Positions 5,877 to 18,394 of a stretch of DNA of 36,488 nucleotides are shown here, piece by piece (position 1 is the stretch's first letter; the number at the start of each line of letters is the position of its first letter). The notes below the pieces were generated by a model. The model did not search any database, was not told the origin of the DNA, and worked only from the letters and a program-made list of their open reading frames with translations. Source of the stretch: an uncultured bacterium. Lineage in GTDB: Bacteria; Bacillota; Clostridia; Lachnospirales; Lachnospiraceae. The position numbers were made by a program, and so were the translations under genes. Location: contig CANSLJ010000034.1 in the NCBI GenBank assembly GCA_947647735.1, positions 1 through 36,488 of the forward strand, in the 5' to 3' direction.

Positions 5877-5899
5877 GTCTAGGTAAACAATAATAAAGA

Positions 5900-6149
5900 A
5901 GTTCTTCGGGGTTGGGTGCAATTCCCTACCGGTGGTGATACGTTTTTCGGAAAAAGCAGCGAAAATACGGCAGGTCCACGACCCATGCAAATGGCTGATT
6001 TGGTGAGAATCCAAAACCGACAGTAAAGTCTGGATGAAAGAAGAAACTGTAAAAATAATATATCGGACGCTGAGATGATCATGGATAGGATCGGCGTGCG
6101 ATGATGATTTTGCAGCGATGCCCCGTACCTGTGATACGGGGATTTTTTT
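5900..6149 (+). promoter_or_regulatory. FMN riboswitch (RFN element) with terminator
   Basis: The aptamer runs from about 5900 to 6047. It has the conserved RFN blocks CTTCGGGGTTGGGTGCAA, CCGGTGGTGATACG, a variable P3 arm, GGTCCACGACCC, GGCTGATTTGGTGAGAATCC and CCGACAGTAAAGTCTGGATG, closed by TTCTTC/GAAGAA pairing. The expression platform ends in an intrinsic terminator: CCCCGTA (6121-6127), TACGGGG (6135-6141) and seven T at 6143-6149. FMN binding is expected to stop transcription before ribU. Confidence 0.95.
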
Positions 6150-6224
6150 GTGCAGATAACAGGCAGACGCTCTGTTTCCCGCACAAACTGGAAGAACTCC
6201 TTAAGAAGATCGGAGGAGAAAAAA

Positions 6225-6995
6225 ATGAGCGAACTGTTACAAAGTATTCAGGAAAATGTAGTGTTTTTACTGGAGTTTCTGGCACTGGTCTGCGCCCTGT
6301 TTCTGGCTGCCTATGGTGCGGAGAAATGGGCAAAGAAAGCATCCGGCGATACGCAGCGGATACTGAGCACAAGAAAGATTGCCGTGATCGGAGTCCTTTC
6401 GGCAATCTCAGCGATACTGATGCTGTTTGAGTTTCCGGTACCCTTCGCGCCGCCTTTTTATGAGATTGATTTTTCGGAGCTGCCGGCGCTGATCGGAACC
6501 TTCGCCTACGGGCCTGTAGCCGGGGTCATGATAGAGCTCTGCAAGATTATTTTAAAATTATTGATGAAAGGTACCAGCACCGCCTTCGTAGGCGATCTTG
6601 CCAACTTTGTCATCGGCTGCAGCTATCTGCTGCCGGCATCCATTATCTACCTGTTTAAAAAGACCAGAAAAAATGCGGTGATCGGTTGTATCGCGGGCAC
6701 TCTTGTGATGACAGTGTTCGGAACCGCCTTCAACGCGGTATATCTTCTGCCAAAGTTTGCACAGCTTTACGGCATGCCCCTAGATGCCATTATCGGTATG
6801 GGAACAGCCATCAATCCGGCGATCAACAGCGTTGCAAGCCTTGTCATTCTGGCTGTGGCGCCGTTGAATGTGTTAAAAGGTACCACCGTTTCCGTTATCA
6901 CGCTGCTTGTGTATAAAAAACTCAGCCCTGTTCTCAAAGCTGCCGAACCGGCAGGCCGGGTGCGAACGAAAGAGAAAAATATGGTAAAAGGATGA
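6225..6995 (+). CDS. ribU: riboflavin ECF transporter S component RibU
   Basis: RibU is the membrane substrate-binding subunit that captures riboflavin and pairs with a shared ECF ATPase/T module, none of which is encoded here. Residues from about 54 on match the family: IAVIGVLSAISAILMLFEFPVPF, FYEIDFSELPALIGTFAYGPVAG, VGDLANFVIG, TVFGTAFNAVYLLP, with about six hydrophobic segments. The ATG at 6225 is chosen because GGAGGAG ends six bases upstream; longer readings start inside the leader. The N-terminal ~50 residues add one extra hydrophobic segment (VFLLEFLALVCALFLAAYG) before the RibU core, which is not typical. The FMN riboswitch directly upstream confirms the substrate. Confidence 0.92.
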   Translation: MSELLQSIQENVVFLLEFLALVCALFLAAYGAEKWAKKASGDTQRILSTRKIAVIGVLSAISAILMLFEFPVPFAPPFYEIDFSELPALIGTFAYGPVAGVMIELCKIILKLLMKGTSTAFVGDLANFVIGCSYLLPASIIYLFKKTRKNAVIGCIAGTLVMTVFGTAFNAVYLLPKFAQLYGMPLDAIIGMGTAINPAINSVASLVILAVAPLNVLKGTTVSVITLLVYKKLSPVLKAAEPAGRVRTKEKNMVKG

Positions 6996-7859: not shown

Positions 7860-8411
7860 TTATTTCTGATAAACAATTTTTTCTGCCATGGCATCAGCCG
7901 CTTCTTTTCCCTGATACCGCTCTAAAATAGAAAGCGCAAAGGGAATCGCAGCCCCCATACCGCGCCCTGTCGTAATATTCCCGGAAACCACACTGGGTGT
8001 TTTTAATACATCCGCCCCCTCCAAGTGGTCTTCAAAGGACGGAAAGCTGCAGGCTGCCCGGCCCTTTAAATGTCCCCTGTGGCCCAAAATACTCGGTGCC
8101 GCACAGATAGCGCTGACAGGGCGGTCTGCTCTCACAAATGCATCCACCTGTTCCATCAACGGTTCACAGGCTTCTAAATTCTTCGTTCCCGGCATGCCGC
8201 CCGGCAGAACGATCATTTCCACCTGATCAAAATCCACCTCCGATAACAGGCAGTCCATCTTTACCGTGATCTGGTGGGAACTGGTCACTTCCCTTTCGCC
8301 GGTGATGGATACCATTTTTACCGGGATCGAAGCTCTTCGTAAAATATCGACTACCGTAAGCGCTTCTATTTCCTCGTAACCCTCACCGAAAAATACACAA
8401 ATATCGTTCAT
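7860..8411 (-). CDS. DJ-1/PfpI (YajL/ThiJ) family protein
   Basis: DJ-1 family proteins are stress-related glyoxalase/deglycase-type enzymes built on a Cys-Glu pair. The 183-residue protein has the Glu-containing GYEEIEA motif near residue 12, VLPGGMPGTKNL at about 68, and the nucleophile elbow SAICAAPSILG with Cys103. Length is typical of the DJ-1 subfamily. It starts 18 bases after an AGAGAGGGTAAC ribosome site. A promoter lies at 8455-8483. Substrate is not known from the sequence. Confidence 0.9.
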   Translation of the reverse strand: MNDICVFFGEGYEEIEALTVVDILRRASIPVKMVSITGEREVTSSHQITVKMDCLLSEVDFDQVEMIVLPGGMPGTKNLEACEPLMEQVDAFVRADRPVSAICAAPSILGHRGHLKGRAACSFPSFEDHLEGADVLKTPSVVSGNITTGRGMGAAIPFALSILERYQGKEAADAMAEKIVYQK

Positions 8412-8532: not shown

Positions 8533-8667
8533 GCCGGAAGCAGGGCAATATCCTGTTCAGGCACGCTCTCGCTTGGAGAAAAGCGCAGCGGTACTAAGTT
8601 CGTGAAATACCTCACTAAGTACCGACGCTTTTCTACAGCCTTCACAGGATATTGCCCTGCTTCCGGC
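8533..8667. repeat. long-hairpin element, copy A
   Basis: A 135-bp unit closed by a perfect 24-bp inverted repeat (8533-8556 with 8644-8667). Inside, the 87-base core has further pairing: AGAAAAGCG with CGCTTTTCT, CGGTACT with AGTACCG, and GTGA with TCAC around the tip, plus a small TCTC/GAGA side hairpin. A second copy in opposite orientation lies at 17045-17178. It stands in the gap between the divergent DJ-1 and CYTH genes, with no open frame. Identity of the element is unknown to me. Confidence 0.9.
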
Positions 8668-8837: not shown

Positions 8838-9332
8838 ATGGAAATCGAGCGTAAATTTTTATTGAAAGAAGTACCGGAGGATTTGGATAGTTATTCTTAT
8901 CATCTCATTGAACAGGCCTATCTGTGCACGGAACCGGTGGTTCGTGTTCGCAGACAGGATGATGAGTATTATATGACTTATAAGGGGAGCGGTATGATGA
9001 GCAGGGAAGAGTATAATCTTCCTTTGACGAAAGAAGCATATGAGCATCTGCTGCCAAAGGCTGACGGTAATGTCATATCTAAGAAAAGATATCTGATACC
9101 TTTGTCAGATGATGAGATCAATCCGGAATGCCTGTCACTTTTAAACGGCACTCCCCTCACAATCGAGCTGGATGAATTCGCTCCGCCTTTTGCGCCGCTT
9201 CTTCTCGCTGAAGTCGAATTTCCCACCGAAGAGGCTGCTGAGGCTTTTCAGATGCCGGACTGGTTTTCTGAGGACGTGACACAGGATGTCAGGTACCATA
9301 ATTCTTATATGTCCAGGCAGATTATCGGCTAA
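8838..9332 (+). CDS. CYTH domain protein (triphosphate tunnel family)
   Basis: CYTH proteins act on triphosphorylated substrates (thiamine triphosphatase, tripolyphosphatase or class IV adenylate cyclase). The 164-residue protein starts with the diagnostic MEIERKFLL (ExExK metal/phosphate motif) and continues with VVRVRRQDDEYYMTYKGSG, TIELDEF and AEVEFPTEEAAEAF, the alternating charged strands that line the tunnel. The ATG at 8838 is preceded by AGAGGTG at a good distance; the in-frame upstream codons are leader sequence. Small CYTH proteins of this size in Clostridia are mostly of unknown substrate. Confidence 0.88.
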   Translation: MEIERKFLLKEVPEDLDSYSYHLIEQAYLCTEPVVRVRRQDDEYYMTYKGSGMMSREEYNLPLTKEAYEHLLPKADGNVISKKRYLIPLSDDEINPECLSLLNGTPLTIELDEFAPPFAPLLLAEVEFPTEEAAEAFQMPDWFSEDVTQDVRYHNSYMSRQIIG

Positions 9333-14575: not shown

Positions 14576-16906
14576 TTACATTTTAGTAAGATGCCAGATA
14601 TCCCTGTTATATTCCTCGATCGTCCTGTCGGATGAGAAGAATCCTGCCCGCGCAATATTATGCAGCATCATCTTCTTCCACTTTGTCCGATCCTCGTAAT
14701 CCGCAAACGCCTGATCCTTCACCCGGATATAATCCTCCAAATCCAGCAGTGTCATAAACCAGTCCTTATTCAGCAGTTCGTCATGAAGCCGTTTCAGATT
14801 CTCCTTGTTTCCCACTGCCATCGCCTGTTTTCCGACAATAAAGTCCACTGCCTCTTTGATCACTTTGCTCTTCTCATAATACTTTTTGGAGACATATCCA
14901 GGTTTTCCTTTTTTCTTCTCCTCATAGTATCCGATAACTGTATCAGAATCCTCACCGAATATGTAGATATTATCATCGCCCACCAGTTCATGGATCTCCA
15001 CATTGGCACCGTCCGCTGTTCCCAGCGTCACCGCGCCGTTCAGCATAAACTTCATATTGCCCGTGCCGGAAGCCTCCTTGGATGCAAGGGAAATCTGCTC
15101 GGAGATGTCACATGCCGGAATGATCTTCTCCGCATAGCTGACATTGTAGTTTTCCACCATCAGCACTGTCATATAAGGACTGACATCCTTGTCATTATTC
15201 ACGATCTCCTCCAGCACCAGCAGAAGATGGATGATATCCTTCGCGATCACATAGGCAGGTGCAGCCTTCGCACCGAAAATAAAGGTAAGCGGCCTCTTGG
15301 GTTTTTTGCCTCCCTTGATCTCCAGATATTTATGAATAATATACAGCGCATTCATCTGCTGCCTCTTGTACTCATGCAGACGTTTCACCTGAATATCGAA
15401 AATAGAATCCGGATTCAGTTCCACTCCTTCCATCTCTTTTACATACGCAACAAGTTCCTGCTTCTTGATCCGCTTGATCTCCGCCAGCTTATCCAGCACT
15501 GCCCCGTCCGTTTCATACGCAAGCAGTTTTTCCAGCTCATCCGCATCCTTTTTATACCCCTTGCCGATCAGCCCGGTTATGTATGCAGAAAGTTCTCTGT
15601 TACAGGATAAAAGCCAGCGTCTGAACGTTATCCCGTTTGTCTTGTTATTAAATTTCTCAGGATACAGTTTATAAAAATCATTCAGTTCCGTATTCTTCAA
15701 AATTTCCGTATGGATCGCCGCCACACCGTTCACGGAAAAACCGTAATGAATATCGATATGCGCCATATGTACTTTATCATCCTTATCGATGATCCATACA
15801 TTTTTGTTCTTCGGATATTTCTCCCGCACCCGCTTATCCAGCTCTTTGATGATCGGCACAAGCTGAGGCACTACTTTCTCCAGATATTCCAGCGGCCATT
15901 TCTCCAATGCCTCCGCCAGGATCGTATGATTCGTATAGGCGCATGTCTTACTTATCACATCGATGGCCTCATCCATTGTGAACGCCTTATCCTCCACCAG
16001 AATCCGGATCAGCTCCGGGATCACCATGGTCGGATGGGTATCGTTGATCTGGATCACGCAATGATCATAGAGCTTTCTCAGATCCTGCTTCTTCTCCTTC
16101 ATCTCCTGTAAAACAAGCTGCGCCCCGTTGCTCACCATAAAATACTGCTGATAGATCCGCAGAAGATTTCCCGCTTCATCAGAATCATCCGGATATAAAA
16201 ACAGTGTCAGGTTCTTCTCGATCTCTTCCTTATCAAAATCAATGCCGTCTTTTACAATGCTCTCATCCACGGACTCGATATCAAACAGATGCAGTTTATT
16301 GACACCACTGTCATATCCAACCACATCAATGTCATACAGCCTGGACTTCACTGTCATATTTCCGAATTCCACATCGAAGGTAGTCTCCGTCTTATTCAGC
16401 CAGCTATCCTTCTCGATCCATGCATTCGGCTCCGCCTCCTGCAGCTTATCCTTGAATACCTGCTTGAACAACCCGAAATGATAGTTCAATCCGATCCCGT
16501 CGCCGGGCAGCCCAAGCGTTGCGATAGAATCCAGAAAACATGCAGCCAGACGGCCAAGCCCGCCGTTTCCGAGAGAAGGTTCCGGCTCCACTTCCTCAAT
16601 CTTAGACAATTCTTTCCCATACTTCTTCAGGATCTTCTCCAGCTCCTCATAAATCCCCAGATTGATCAGATTATTGGACAAAAGCTTTCCGATCAGAAAC
16701 TCAGCTGAAATATAGTAAAGCTTTTTATCCCCGGTGATCTCCTCCGTCACCTCTGTCATTTCCTTCGTCAGCTCCAGAATGGAATAATAAAGCTGCTCAT
16801 CCGTACACTCTGAAAGCCCCTTCCCATACTTCTTCTCCGCCAGCATGGCAAGCTGCGTCTCCATGTTAAGCTGTAATACTTTCCTTGGCATCTGTAATTC
16901 TGTCAT
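14576..16906 (-). CDS. glgP: glycogen/maltodextrin phosphorylase
   Basis: A PLP enzyme that releases glucose 1-phosphate from alpha-1,4-glucans. The 776-residue protein carries [13 protein letters not shown] near residue 65, [27 protein letters not shown], the [12 protein letters not shown] segment, and [14 protein letters not shown], in which Lys619 binds PLP, followed by [12 protein letters not shown]. Length is normal. AGGAGG lies eight bases upstream of the ATG. It is the first gene of the glgP-malQ-GH31-AI-2E block, and the hairpin element copy B lies in the 291-bp gap between it and the LacI gene. No convincing promoter was found in that gap. Confidence 0.96.
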
Positions 16907-17044: not shown

Positions 17045-17178
17045 CAGAACAGAGCATATATATCCTGTGAAGGCTGTAGAAAAACGTCAGTACTTAGCGA
17101 GGTATTTTCGAGCTTAGTACTGCTACGTTTTTCTCCAAGTGAGAACGCGTCTGAACAGGATATATATGCTCTGTTCTG
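17045..17178. repeat. long-hairpin element, copy B
   Basis: A 134-bp unit closed by a perfect 24-bp inverted repeat (17045-17068 with 17155-17178). The core at 17069-17154 aligns with the reverse complement of copy A: 12 substitutions, all transitions, and one single-base gap over 87 positions. The outer arm sequence differs from copy A while the inner ATATCCTGT is shared. It starts 20 bp beyond the LacI gene stop codon. On the minus strand no T run follows, so it is not a simple terminator. Confidence 0.9.
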
Positions 17179-17197
17179 GCGTCCGCTTGTTATCCTC

Positions 17198-18187
17198 TCA
17201 CGCAATAATATCCAAATATTTCATCCGCACGATCGTATGCGGCAAAACAACCTCTCTCCCCTCTCCGCCCTGCAGGAGATAGCGCAGCTCTTCCACGGCC
17301 GCCGAAGAAACCCCGGCGAAATTCTGCTGCACCGTGTTCATCTGCTTTCCCGCATAGCCCATCAGCACAAGCCCGTCAAACCCGCAGACCGGGCGGAAAA
17401 TATCCATCTCGATCAGCGCCCGCATGGCGCCGATCGCCATCAGATCCGACCCGCAGACAATCACATCCCTGCTCCTGGCATATTGAAAAGTCAGATTCCG
17501 CGCCTTTAGCTCACTGAAATCCCCATATCGGACAAAAAGCCTGCAGGAGAGCTCCTTCGCCAGTTCCTCCATCCCTTTCAGCCGCTCCGCCCCGGGATAG
17601 GAATTCTTTTTCCCGGCGATATAAAATATCTTTTTAGATTTATTCTCCAGGATCGTCTTCCGCGCCACATCTATCTGCGCCTGCCGGTGGTTGATCCCGA
17701 TACAGGAGACTGATGTCCCGTGAAAAGAAACATCCACCAGCACCATTTTAAAGGTGCCTGCTTCCACCAGCTCCCAGAGCACTTTATCATTTCCTGAAAT
17801 GCCGAAAACAATAATCCCCTCAATGCTCTGTGCCTTGAAATACCGGATGATCTCCCCCGCCGACTTTCCTTTCAGCATGGAAAAAAATACGGTGATCAGA
17901 TCCAGCCTCATCTCCTGAGCCTTCTGGATGGCGCCGACCATATACTGCATATCGATCTCATCGATCGCCTTGGTCTGTGTATTTAAATTCATGAGCAGTG
18001 CGATCCGCCCCGCCTGCTTGGAAGAAAGCGCTGCCGCAATGGAATTGGGCACAAAATGCAGTTCCTCTATCGCCTCCTGCACTTTCCTCTTTGTCTTCTC
18101 GCTGACGCCCGGATAACCGTTCAGTACTTTGGATACCGTGGATATCGCCACATCCGCCTGTTTTGCCACATCTTTTATTGAAACCAT
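17198..18187 (-). CDS. LacI family transcriptional regulator
   Basis: A 329-residue repressor-type protein. The N terminus is the LacI helix-turn-helix MVSIKDVAKQADVAISTVSKVLNG, with the hinge helix and the VPNSIAAALSSKQ segment, followed by a periplasmic-binding-like effector domain (GRIALLMNLN, EGIIVFGISG, CGFDGLVLMGYAG). The start at 18187 is chosen because the DNA-binding domain begins there; in-frame codons upstream cover the promoter. It is preceded by a consensus promoter and a LacI-type palindrome at the transcription start, suggesting self-repression. The downstream neighbours are glgP-malQ-GH31, the likeliest targets besides itself; this is inference because no matching palindrome is seen before glgP. 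Confidence 0.93.
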   Translation of the reverse strand: MVSIKDVAKQADVAISTVSKVLNGYPGVSEKTKRKVQEAIEELHFVPNSIAAALSSKQAGRIALLMNLNTQTKAIDEIDMQYMVGAIQKAQEMRLDLITVFFSMLKGKSAGEIIRYFKAQSIEGIIVFGISGNDKVLWELVEAGTFKMVLVDVSFHGTSVSCIGINHRQAQIDVARKTILENKSKKIFYIAGKKNSYPGAERLKGMEELAKELSCRLFVRYGDFSELKARNLTFQYARSRDVIVCGSDLMAIGAMRALIEMDIFRPVCGFDGLVLMGYAGKQMNTVQQNFAGVSSAAVEELRYLLQGGEGREVVLPHTIVRMKYLDIIA

Positions 18188-18192
18188 ATTTT

Positions 18193-18206
18193 TATTCCAG
18201 TTCCGC
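18193..18206 (-). repeat. 14-base leader motif GCGGAACTGGAATA
   Basis: This 14-base string lies six bases before the LacI start codon. The same 14 bases occur at 19558-19571 and, with one inserted A, at 19443-19457 in the leader of the aldo/keto reductase gene. It does not look like a normal Shine-Dalgarno sequence. Confidence 0.5.
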
Positions 18207-18216
18207 TTATTTTTTA

Positions 18217-18228
18217 GAAAACGTTTTC
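18217..18228. promoter_or_regulatory. LacI-type operator
   Basis: GAAAACGTTTTC is a perfect 12-bp palindrome with the central CG typical of LacI-family sites. It lies exactly at the predicted start point (about 18229) of the LacI gene promoter, the classic position for autorepression. Confidence 0.65.
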
Positions 18229-18235
18229 CATCGAT

Positions 18236-18264
18236 ACTATAGTACAAATGCCATATGGTGTCAA
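18236..18264 (-). promoter_or_regulatory. sigma-A promoter of the LacI gene
   Basis: The minus strand has TTGACA (18259-18264), a 17-base spacer containing CCATATGG, and TATAGT (18236-18241). Confidence 0.8.
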
Positions 18265-18394
18265 GAGGTTTTTCTAAAAAACGGCATGACTTTTCAGCCA
18301 CACCGTTTTCTCCCCTGCCATAGGCTTATTCTGTTTTTTATTATCCGGCTCTTCCCGGAACGCCCCGCTATGATATAAAGCTTTCACACTATTT

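Follow-up and report, generated by a model that had tools for sequence, protein, structure and literature searches.

A dispersed hairpin with a conserved three-way-junction tip in Lachnospiraceae, possibly spread as a small mobile DNA repeat

How can the copies of a hairpin keep their pairing while the paired sequence itself differs from one copy to the next? The question is raised by two hairpins in a 36,488-base stretch of DNA from an uncultured member of the Lachnospiraceae (hereafter the window), which the initial annotation described as copies of a dispersed element and read as the signature of a selected RNA or single-stranded DNA structure. The answer bears on more than this locus, since the hairpins belong to an abundant repeat, with tens of copies per genome, that lies between operon genes of a dominant gut family and is not in Rfam.

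Two hairpins in the window and the family they belong to

Copy 1 (8533–8667, plus strand) is 135 nt long and copy 2 (17045–17178, minus strand, read as the reverse complement) is 134 nt long. Each is closed by a perfect 24-bp inverted repeat, here called P1: in copy 1 the 5′ arm (8533–8556, whose outer part is private to this copy) pairs with the 3′ arm at 8644–8667, and in copy 2 the arm at 17155–17178 pairs with that at 17045–17068. The cores, of 87 and 86 nt, differ by 12 transitions, no transversion and one gap, and the first 24 nt are identical at only 11 positions, chiefly the inner ATATCCTGT. The pair had thus been described exactly to the base. These two hairpins account for every 20-bp exact inverted-repeat word in the window (ten in all, with a loop of up to 150), and none of 200 shuffles of either copy folds as well (z = −10.9 for copy 1 and −7.8 for copy 2). 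No intrinsic terminator was detected around copy 1 or copy 2.

Their surroundings differ. Copy 1 lies between divergent genes for a DJ-1/PfpI family protein (7860–8411, minus strand; Pfam PF01965) and a CYTH-domain protein (8838–9332, plus strand; Pfam PF01928, with a start codon of our choosing). Copy 2 is sense to both flanking genes and begins 19 nt past the stop codon of a gene for a LacI-family regulator (17198–18301, minus strand; Pfam PF00356), with a carbohydrate phosphorylase gene downstream (14576–16906, minus strand; Pfam PF00343).

The family is large. A BLAST search of the window's genome with copy 1 yielded 41 rows, for 40 places and one self-palindrome row, and a covariance model built from the alignment of these 40 copies gave 86 rows, ten of them antisense shadows. 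The 4.1-Mb genome therefore contains at least 76 copies (150 of the 1,117 first-look candidates having been scored), and copy 1 was itself recovered by both methods. In a survey of 61 genomes, made with strict filters and with up to 58 candidates scored per genome, 19 genomes (the window's own included) carry the element, all of them among the 37 genomes of the window's family; none of the 24 from other families of the order does. At least 58 copies each were found in genomes G003 and G024, 26 in G001, and 0–12 in the six other congeners. The dispersal proposed from two copies is therefore borne out, and the further copies in related genomes, whose absence would have counted against it, are present.

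Outside this survey, the pattern of the tip matched at least 119 stretches in a collection of 84,980 species genomes. The titles of the 80 loci listed are mostly Lachnospiraceae, its genera, or the broad labels Clostridiales, Clostridiaceae and Firmicutes, together with two Mogibacterium bins; Butyrivibrio, Blautia, Acetatifactor and [Clostridium] symbiosum among them we take to be Lachnospiraceae. The covariance model recovers the element at 76 of the 80 loci, and since they include strains as well as MAGs, the family is not a binning artefact. Phages gave no match to the element and IMG/VR no exact match to the pattern (0), and two plasmid records matched over 34% of the query, both of them large Eubacterium/Lachnospira eligens replicons. 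No Rfam 15 family overlaps the element, either in the window or in eight loci even at E up to 5, in keeping with the earlier statement that it matches no named family. A literature search, largely outside subscription journals and thus weak evidence, found no account of the repeat. The sole match in the window at or above an Rfam gathering threshold is an FMN riboswitch (RF00050, 104.7 bits) at 5898–6049 on the plus strand; downstream of it, 6150–6995 encodes an ECF transporter substrate-specific component (PF12822), presumably a riboflavin transporter.

Covariation and the strand that probably folds

The hairpin consists of the long stem P1 and a tip that forms a conserved three-way junction, composed of helix P1b (four pairs), mini-hairpin P2, and helix P3, which has about 22 pairs, a bulge of 2 nt and one A·A mismatch. 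In copy 1 the tip spans 8559–8641 on the plus strand: P1b pairs 8559–8562 with 8638–8641, P2 occupies 8565–8572, and the bulged P3 pairs 8574–8599 with 8614–8637. The bulge, the A·A mismatch and the junction are retained across genera; the apical loop varies among copies, some of which contain another small hairpin there.

Compensatory changes, first seen between two copies, recur over the 40 window-genome copies, where both sides have changed in 32 of 45 pairs against a shuffled mean of 20.0 (none of 500 shuffles as high) and where 93.4% of cells pair, compared with 80.2% after shuffling and 36–48% when the strands are slid. In a larger set of 222 copies, of which the 175 nonredundant ones were used, 27 pairs are significant at E < 0.05 against a phylogenetic null, a home-made imitation of R-scape's in which the parsimony substitutions of each branch are re-placed on random columns, with 40 simulations and hence an E resolution of 0.025. 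Of these pairs 26 lie in P1, P1b or P3, and the 27th closes the apical loop (E = 0.025); within the tip, covariation is significant in P1b and P3. The strongest pair scores 332, the null maximum being 123. The claim that pairing is conserved is supported by these numbers, and the outcome named beforehand as refuting it, a lack of covariation beyond a phylogenetic null, did not occur. Strong covariation in a repeat is by itself no proof of a selected RNA. According to parts of PMC8794818, template switching can give rise to perfect stems with compensatory changes and preserve them. The family thus offers a test case for selection versus template switching as the source of perfect pairing in stems of differing sequence.

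Imperfect pairs bear on which strand folds. A single transition turns a pair into either G·T or A·C; where just one of the strands folds, the former is tolerated and the latter is not. Over 235 copies (two G003 duplicates removed), the G·T:A·C ratio in P3 of the tip is 127:31. By genome it is 31:6 in the window's, 31:3 in G003 and 66:22 in the others, counts that include the two G003 copies twice and give 128:31. Of the 62 G·T cells counted in the window's genome and G003, 34 come from a single P3 pair, and with this pair excluded the ratio is 28:9 (p = 0.001). The bias favours the same strand of the element whichever way the host gene runs, with 55:11 in sense and 22:7 in antisense copies. 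For the outer stem P1 the ratio over all copies is 54:79 (p = 0.037), or 16:7 in the window's genome (p = 0.09), 5:15 in G003 (p = 0.04) and 33:57 in the others (p = 0.015), and the counts vary with method, from 55:65 by model pairs to 54:79 by local alignment. The A·C excess of P1 outside the window's genome is the opposite of what is expected for an RNA stem on this strand. Watson-Crick pairs make up 98.2% of P1 in the window's genome (1765 of 1797) and 93.4% in 95 other copies, for which this count put G·T:A·C at 33:56. An apparent difference between sense and antisense copies in a smaller first sample is not significant with 235 copies, where the G·T/A·C ratio shows no significant shift with host transcription direction in P1 (p = 0.35) or P3 (p = 0.41); a pooled value of p = 0.036 mixes the two helices.

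From the strand-specific G·T excess in the tip and the lack of such a bias in the outer stem, we infer that the tip acts in single-stranded form, recognised by a factor that goes with the element rather than with the local mRNA, and that the stem acts as a DNA palindrome. Since the outer arms have no overall G·T excess, a DNA palindrome accounts for their perfect pairing no less well than selection on RNA does. Thus the proposed signature of a selected RNA or single-stranded DNA stands in part: the tip ratio fits either molecule, whereas selection as RNA, as it was stated, finds no support in the outer-arm ratio, nor in the scarcity of shared sites and the lack of a gene theme described below.

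Placement of copies and the arms around the tip

At site 1, that of copy 1, the covariance model finds no copy in five of six sister species (G001, G005, G006, G007 and G008), and in G003 a different copy lies elsewhere in the spacer. At site 2 it finds none in four of five (G005, G006, G007 and G008), and G003 has a counterpart of copy 2 (locus L350); the two differ in one change to G·T and in three stem changes that are compensated. Among 53 G003 copies, one of them cut by the end of its locus, six share a gene slot with any of the 76 window-genome copies, both flanks matching for four and a single flank for two. About three of the six appear to be one insertion present in both genomes (copy 2/L350, L170/L343 and L169/L351), the rest being different insertions in the slot; no counterpart was detected among the window-genome copies for the other 47. 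Copies also cluster by genome, the copy tree having 37 genome-label changes against a shuffled mean of 98 and minimum of 87, and the tree of the core alone 45 against 99. The median identity to the nearest neighbour is 0.88 in the window's genome, with 0 of 71 copies at 0.98 or above, and 0.95 in G003, with 9 of 51 at that level. For target duplication, an 8-mer is shared by the flanks of 18 of 74 window-genome copies, with 17.2 expected. Flanking direct repeats of at least 10 bp occur at 3 of 51 copies in G003 (1.3 expected) and 6 of 99 elsewhere (1.9 expected), and direct repeats flank longer palindromes at L258 (10 bp), L263 (11 bp), L271 (10 bp) and L334 of G003 (12 bp).

Many copies have a tetranucleotide foot adjoining the 5′ side of the stem. 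In the window's genome it is GGAC in 33, GTCC in 17 and neither in 26 of 76 copies (a looser count, of 36 and 25, takes in false assignments within stems); the corresponding numbers are 34, 1 and 16 of 51 in G003 and 12, 11 and 77 of 100 in other genomes. The feet are therefore characteristic of the window's genus rather than of the family at large. The 3′ foot is coupled to the 5′ foot, as CTGG.T.T goes with GGAC and CTGCGTT with GTCC. Copy 2 has GGAC at 17181–17184 on the minus strand (GTCC on the plus strand), and copy 1 has neither foot.

The type of foot goes with orientation, as judged from gene positions in a longest-ORF tiling rather than from gene-caller output. Copies with GGAC have the sense orientation relative to the upstream gene in 25 of 33 cases in the window's genome, 27 of 34 in G003 and 10 of 12 elsewhere. 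The stems of these sense copies begin 7–35 nt past the stop codon in 22 of 25 cases in the window's genome (median over the 25, 19 nt) and 13–38 nt past it in 22 of 27 in G003 (median over the 27, 24 nt), and the next same-strand gene lies 4–311 nt away in both. By contrast, GTCC copies are sense in 4 of 17 cases in the window's genome (p = 0.0007 for the difference from GGAC) and 5 of 11 elsewhere, and footless copies have no orientation bias (sense in 13 of 26 in the window's genome and in 42 of 77 in other genomes). No gene theme emerges from 144 flanking proteins, for which the commonest Pfam family, ABC_tran, occurs four times (among the 25 commonest of 186 families); neighbours named by eye from their translations include leuC/leuD, nuo subunits and mnmE. 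At two places in the window's genome (C25:50651–51084 and C8:14157–14545; L043 and L047), inverted pairs of copies lie about 145–190 bp apart in a BIME-like arrangement.

Tip and arms can differ separately. L170 and L343, in the same slot in two species, have an identical outer stem and a different tip and inner stem. L045 and L057 have an identical tip, a near-identical inner stem and unrelated outer stems, both arms diverging at about the same depth; conversely, some copies with identical outer arms have tips that are only 80–86% alike. The inner arm itself varies and covaries among the 40 window-genome copies. Lineage-specific outer repeats in excess of the control occur at 3 of 75 copies in the window's genome, 2 of 51 in G003 and 13 of 99 elsewhere. 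A subfamily in G003 has outer arms AATGTCATTTAGTTAA, and three G003 copies (L330, L332 and L342) sit within further arms, AACAGTTCAGC...GCTGAACTGTT, that resemble the ends of small insertion sequences; arms of the AACAGTTCAGC type occur at 13 places in G001 without the tip. A clear match to an insertion-sequence end, which the initial annotation had named as evidence against its reading, is not seen in the window's genome, but insertion-sequence-like arms do enclose a small number of G003 copies. Much longer stems can be capped by the same tip in other genera, such as that of L258, which folds at −191 kcal/mol over 215 nt. Independent outer REP hairpins that lack the tip (GGACGCC...GGCTGG) were considered and rejected, with 2 matches in the window's genome and 3 in a reversed control.

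No autonomous version with a gene in the loop was found among 294 left halves of the tip, scanned over short overlapping loci in which many are the same copy and from which eleven loci (L306–L316) were left out. A right half follows within 120 nt in 275 of them; the other 19 are without one within 5 kb in the same locus, and those inspected look like diverged right halves, short inserts in the tip, or contig ends.

Possible mobility and rival explanations

We consider it somewhat more probable than the opposite that the hairpins are a family of small non-autonomous mobile DNA repeats, working like REP elements or fold-back MITEs. Insertion polymorphism, clustering by genome and the themeless neighbours point to a mobile repeat rather than to a conserved RNA gene, and we also count in favour of mobility the copy number, the absences in sister species, the GGAC/GTCC feet, the direction-independent G·T excess of the tip, and the direct repeats flanking a few copies in other genomes. 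Against it we count that no mobiliser or autonomous version was found in the searches described here, that the feet are not family-wide, that target duplication is not evident and close sisters are few in the window's genome, that the tip of L170/L343 differs while the stem is unchanged, the reverse of free drift of the stem in place, and that placement past stop codons could equally reflect function.

The mechanism we propose for such a mobile repeat follows the precedent of TnpA-REP, as described in parts of PMC8266576. An enzyme acting in trans would recognise the folded single strand, by its tip and perhaps its foot, and then move the copy. The outer stem would be retained between copies as pairing and not as sequence; stems might remain perfect because each move requires them to re-form, and because template switching in the palindrome can copy one arm onto the other. 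Copies landing just past a stop codon may be tolerated, accumulate there and join the mRNA spacer.

Two candidate enzymes were tried and rejected as the general mobiliser. The Y1/HUH transposase (PF01797), the candidate for RAYT mobilisation, has no match in carriers G001, G005, G010, G019, G025 and G030, of which G001, G010, G025 and G030 are at least 94% complete and hold 6–26 copies; the window's genome has one broken fragment, and other carriers have matches, so its presence fails to track the copies. The same is true of the IS66 transposase (PF03050), which is absent from G001, G003, G019, G024 and G025, heavy carriers G003 and G024 among them, and in the window's genome has only partial or broken matches. 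Small elements of the IS66 type have GTAA ends and an 8-bp duplication, and their transposase is missing from several heavy carriers of the present element. Its likeness to MITEs lies in the few copies of other genomes that have direct repeats outside longer inverted arms and in the three G003 copies inside AACAGTTCAGC-type arms; unlike MITEs, it has no family-wide terminal inverted repeat, its outer arms being private to copies, and its target duplication is not above chance in the window's genome.

A further close comparison is with REP elements. Parts of PMC3733652 and PMC8266576 describe the REP super-families GTAG and CGTC, 20–40 bp long with a foot tetranucleotide and associated with RAYT/TnpA-REP enzymes, which read single-stranded hairpins with that foot and, in one group, a bulge (PMC8266576), and Di Nocera and colleagues place REPs near upstream stop codons (PMC3733652). 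As far as these parts go, the present element resembles REPs as a dispersed intergenic palindrome in tens of copies with conserved hairpin irregularities, with a short unpaired tag at one stem foot (here within the window's genus) and, for sense GGAC copies only, with a position near the upstream stop codon and the next gene at variable distance. It differs in its size of 134–135 nt in the window, in a tip that forms a conserved three-way junction below which the outer stem is nearly private to each copy, in a tag that is GGAC/GTCC rather than GTAG/CGTC and is absent from most copies outside the genus, and in that no tyrosine transposase tracks it. Thus it behaves like a REP element but, in its tag, size and transposase, falls outside the super-families described so far, and it provides a test case for REP-like spread without a recognisable REP transposase. 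The word Firmicutes is absent from the main text of the REP survey PMC3733652. Another repeat, MRSC-65-2, likewise has dozens of copies per genome and a covarying long stem, and passages of PMC11109978 report that its authors judged it selfish; as described there, it is set apart by a single long stem with a UYCCGG repeat, its occurrence in diverse phyla and the lack of a three-way junction.

Alternatively, the hairpin might be a structured mRNA element past the stop codon, whose stem blocks 3′ exonucleases or is cut by RNase III and so tunes the operon, being selected at each site. The close position of most GGAC copies behind a stop codon in sense orientation, covariation beyond the phylogenetic null, the strand-specific pairing of the tip, the compensated changes between copy 2 and its G003 counterpart, and the tilt of window-genome P1 towards G·T all agree with this, and the tip is covarying and G·U-tolerant in the manner of the structured RNAs of Rfam 15, albeit with no family match. 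On the other hand, GTCC copies are sense in only a minority of cases and footless copies are unbiased, G·T/A·C ratios show no significant shift with transcription direction in P1 or P3, neighbours have no theme, copy 1 lies between divergent genes, and neither copy has a terminator signature. The consistent gene association and orientation that mark cis-regulatory RNAs and riboswitches were likewise not found, as copies occur in both orientations. We therefore regard this explanation as unlikely for the family, though an RNA function could exist at some sites. It is less likely still that the hairpins are passive palindromes, old insertion-sequence relics whose arms are made or kept by template switching, with neither present function nor mobility. 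Their almost entirely Watson-Crick stems, with no consistent G·T excess, suit this, and perfect stems are documented to arise by template switching (parts of PMC8794818); but arm copying alone would erase the tip bulge, A·A mismatch and junction that are kept across genera, and the G·T bias of the tip and the close sister copies in G003 also count against it.

The separate behaviour of tip and arms suggests a further alternative, that the conserved tip itself moves, either inserting into palindromes at their tips or being swapped among such tips by recombination, the arms being part of the locus. This would explain why arms differ among copies yet pair within each. L170/L343, with one outer stem and two tips, L045/L057, with one tip and unrelated outer stems, the converse copies with like arms and diverged tips, and the tipless G001 places with the arms that enclose L330, L332 and L342 are all consistent with it. 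However, core-less GGACGCC...GGCTGG palindromes are no commoner in the window's genome than in the reversed control, and the inner arm varies and covaries, and we hold exchange of the tip to be very improbable. We also entertain, as an unlikely reading, a new mobile class, in which only a three-way junction of about 80 nt is inherited and exchanged as sequence and arms of 20–80 bp are free. Its arms might differ through arm-to-arm copying, or through the junction inserting into or swapping between existing palindrome tips, and the foot tetranucleotide, which goes with both the 3′ foot and the orientation towards genes, would serve as a guide.

Several other repeats were also observed. In the window's genome, a second repeated hairpin (ATGTGAAGTTTAGATTTTCTTAG...) is nested in the apical loop of copies L169, L188 and L190 and is absent from the G003 counterpart of the L169 copy. 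In G061, the genome of L258, the word AAACGCATGAAAGGCC, one mismatch from the arm of L258, occurs at six places on six contigs. At L228 (Firmicutes UBA3738), two copies are flanked by inverted repeats of about 70–85 bp with a GGGGACGGTTCTCCTGTCA-like motif. A separate palindromic repeat, GTAACAGTTCAGCC-TTTC-GGCTGNACTGTTAC, occurs at 13 places in G001, in the middle of loci L359–L371, with apparent direct repeats of about 8 bp, judged by eye, at L366, L370 and L371.
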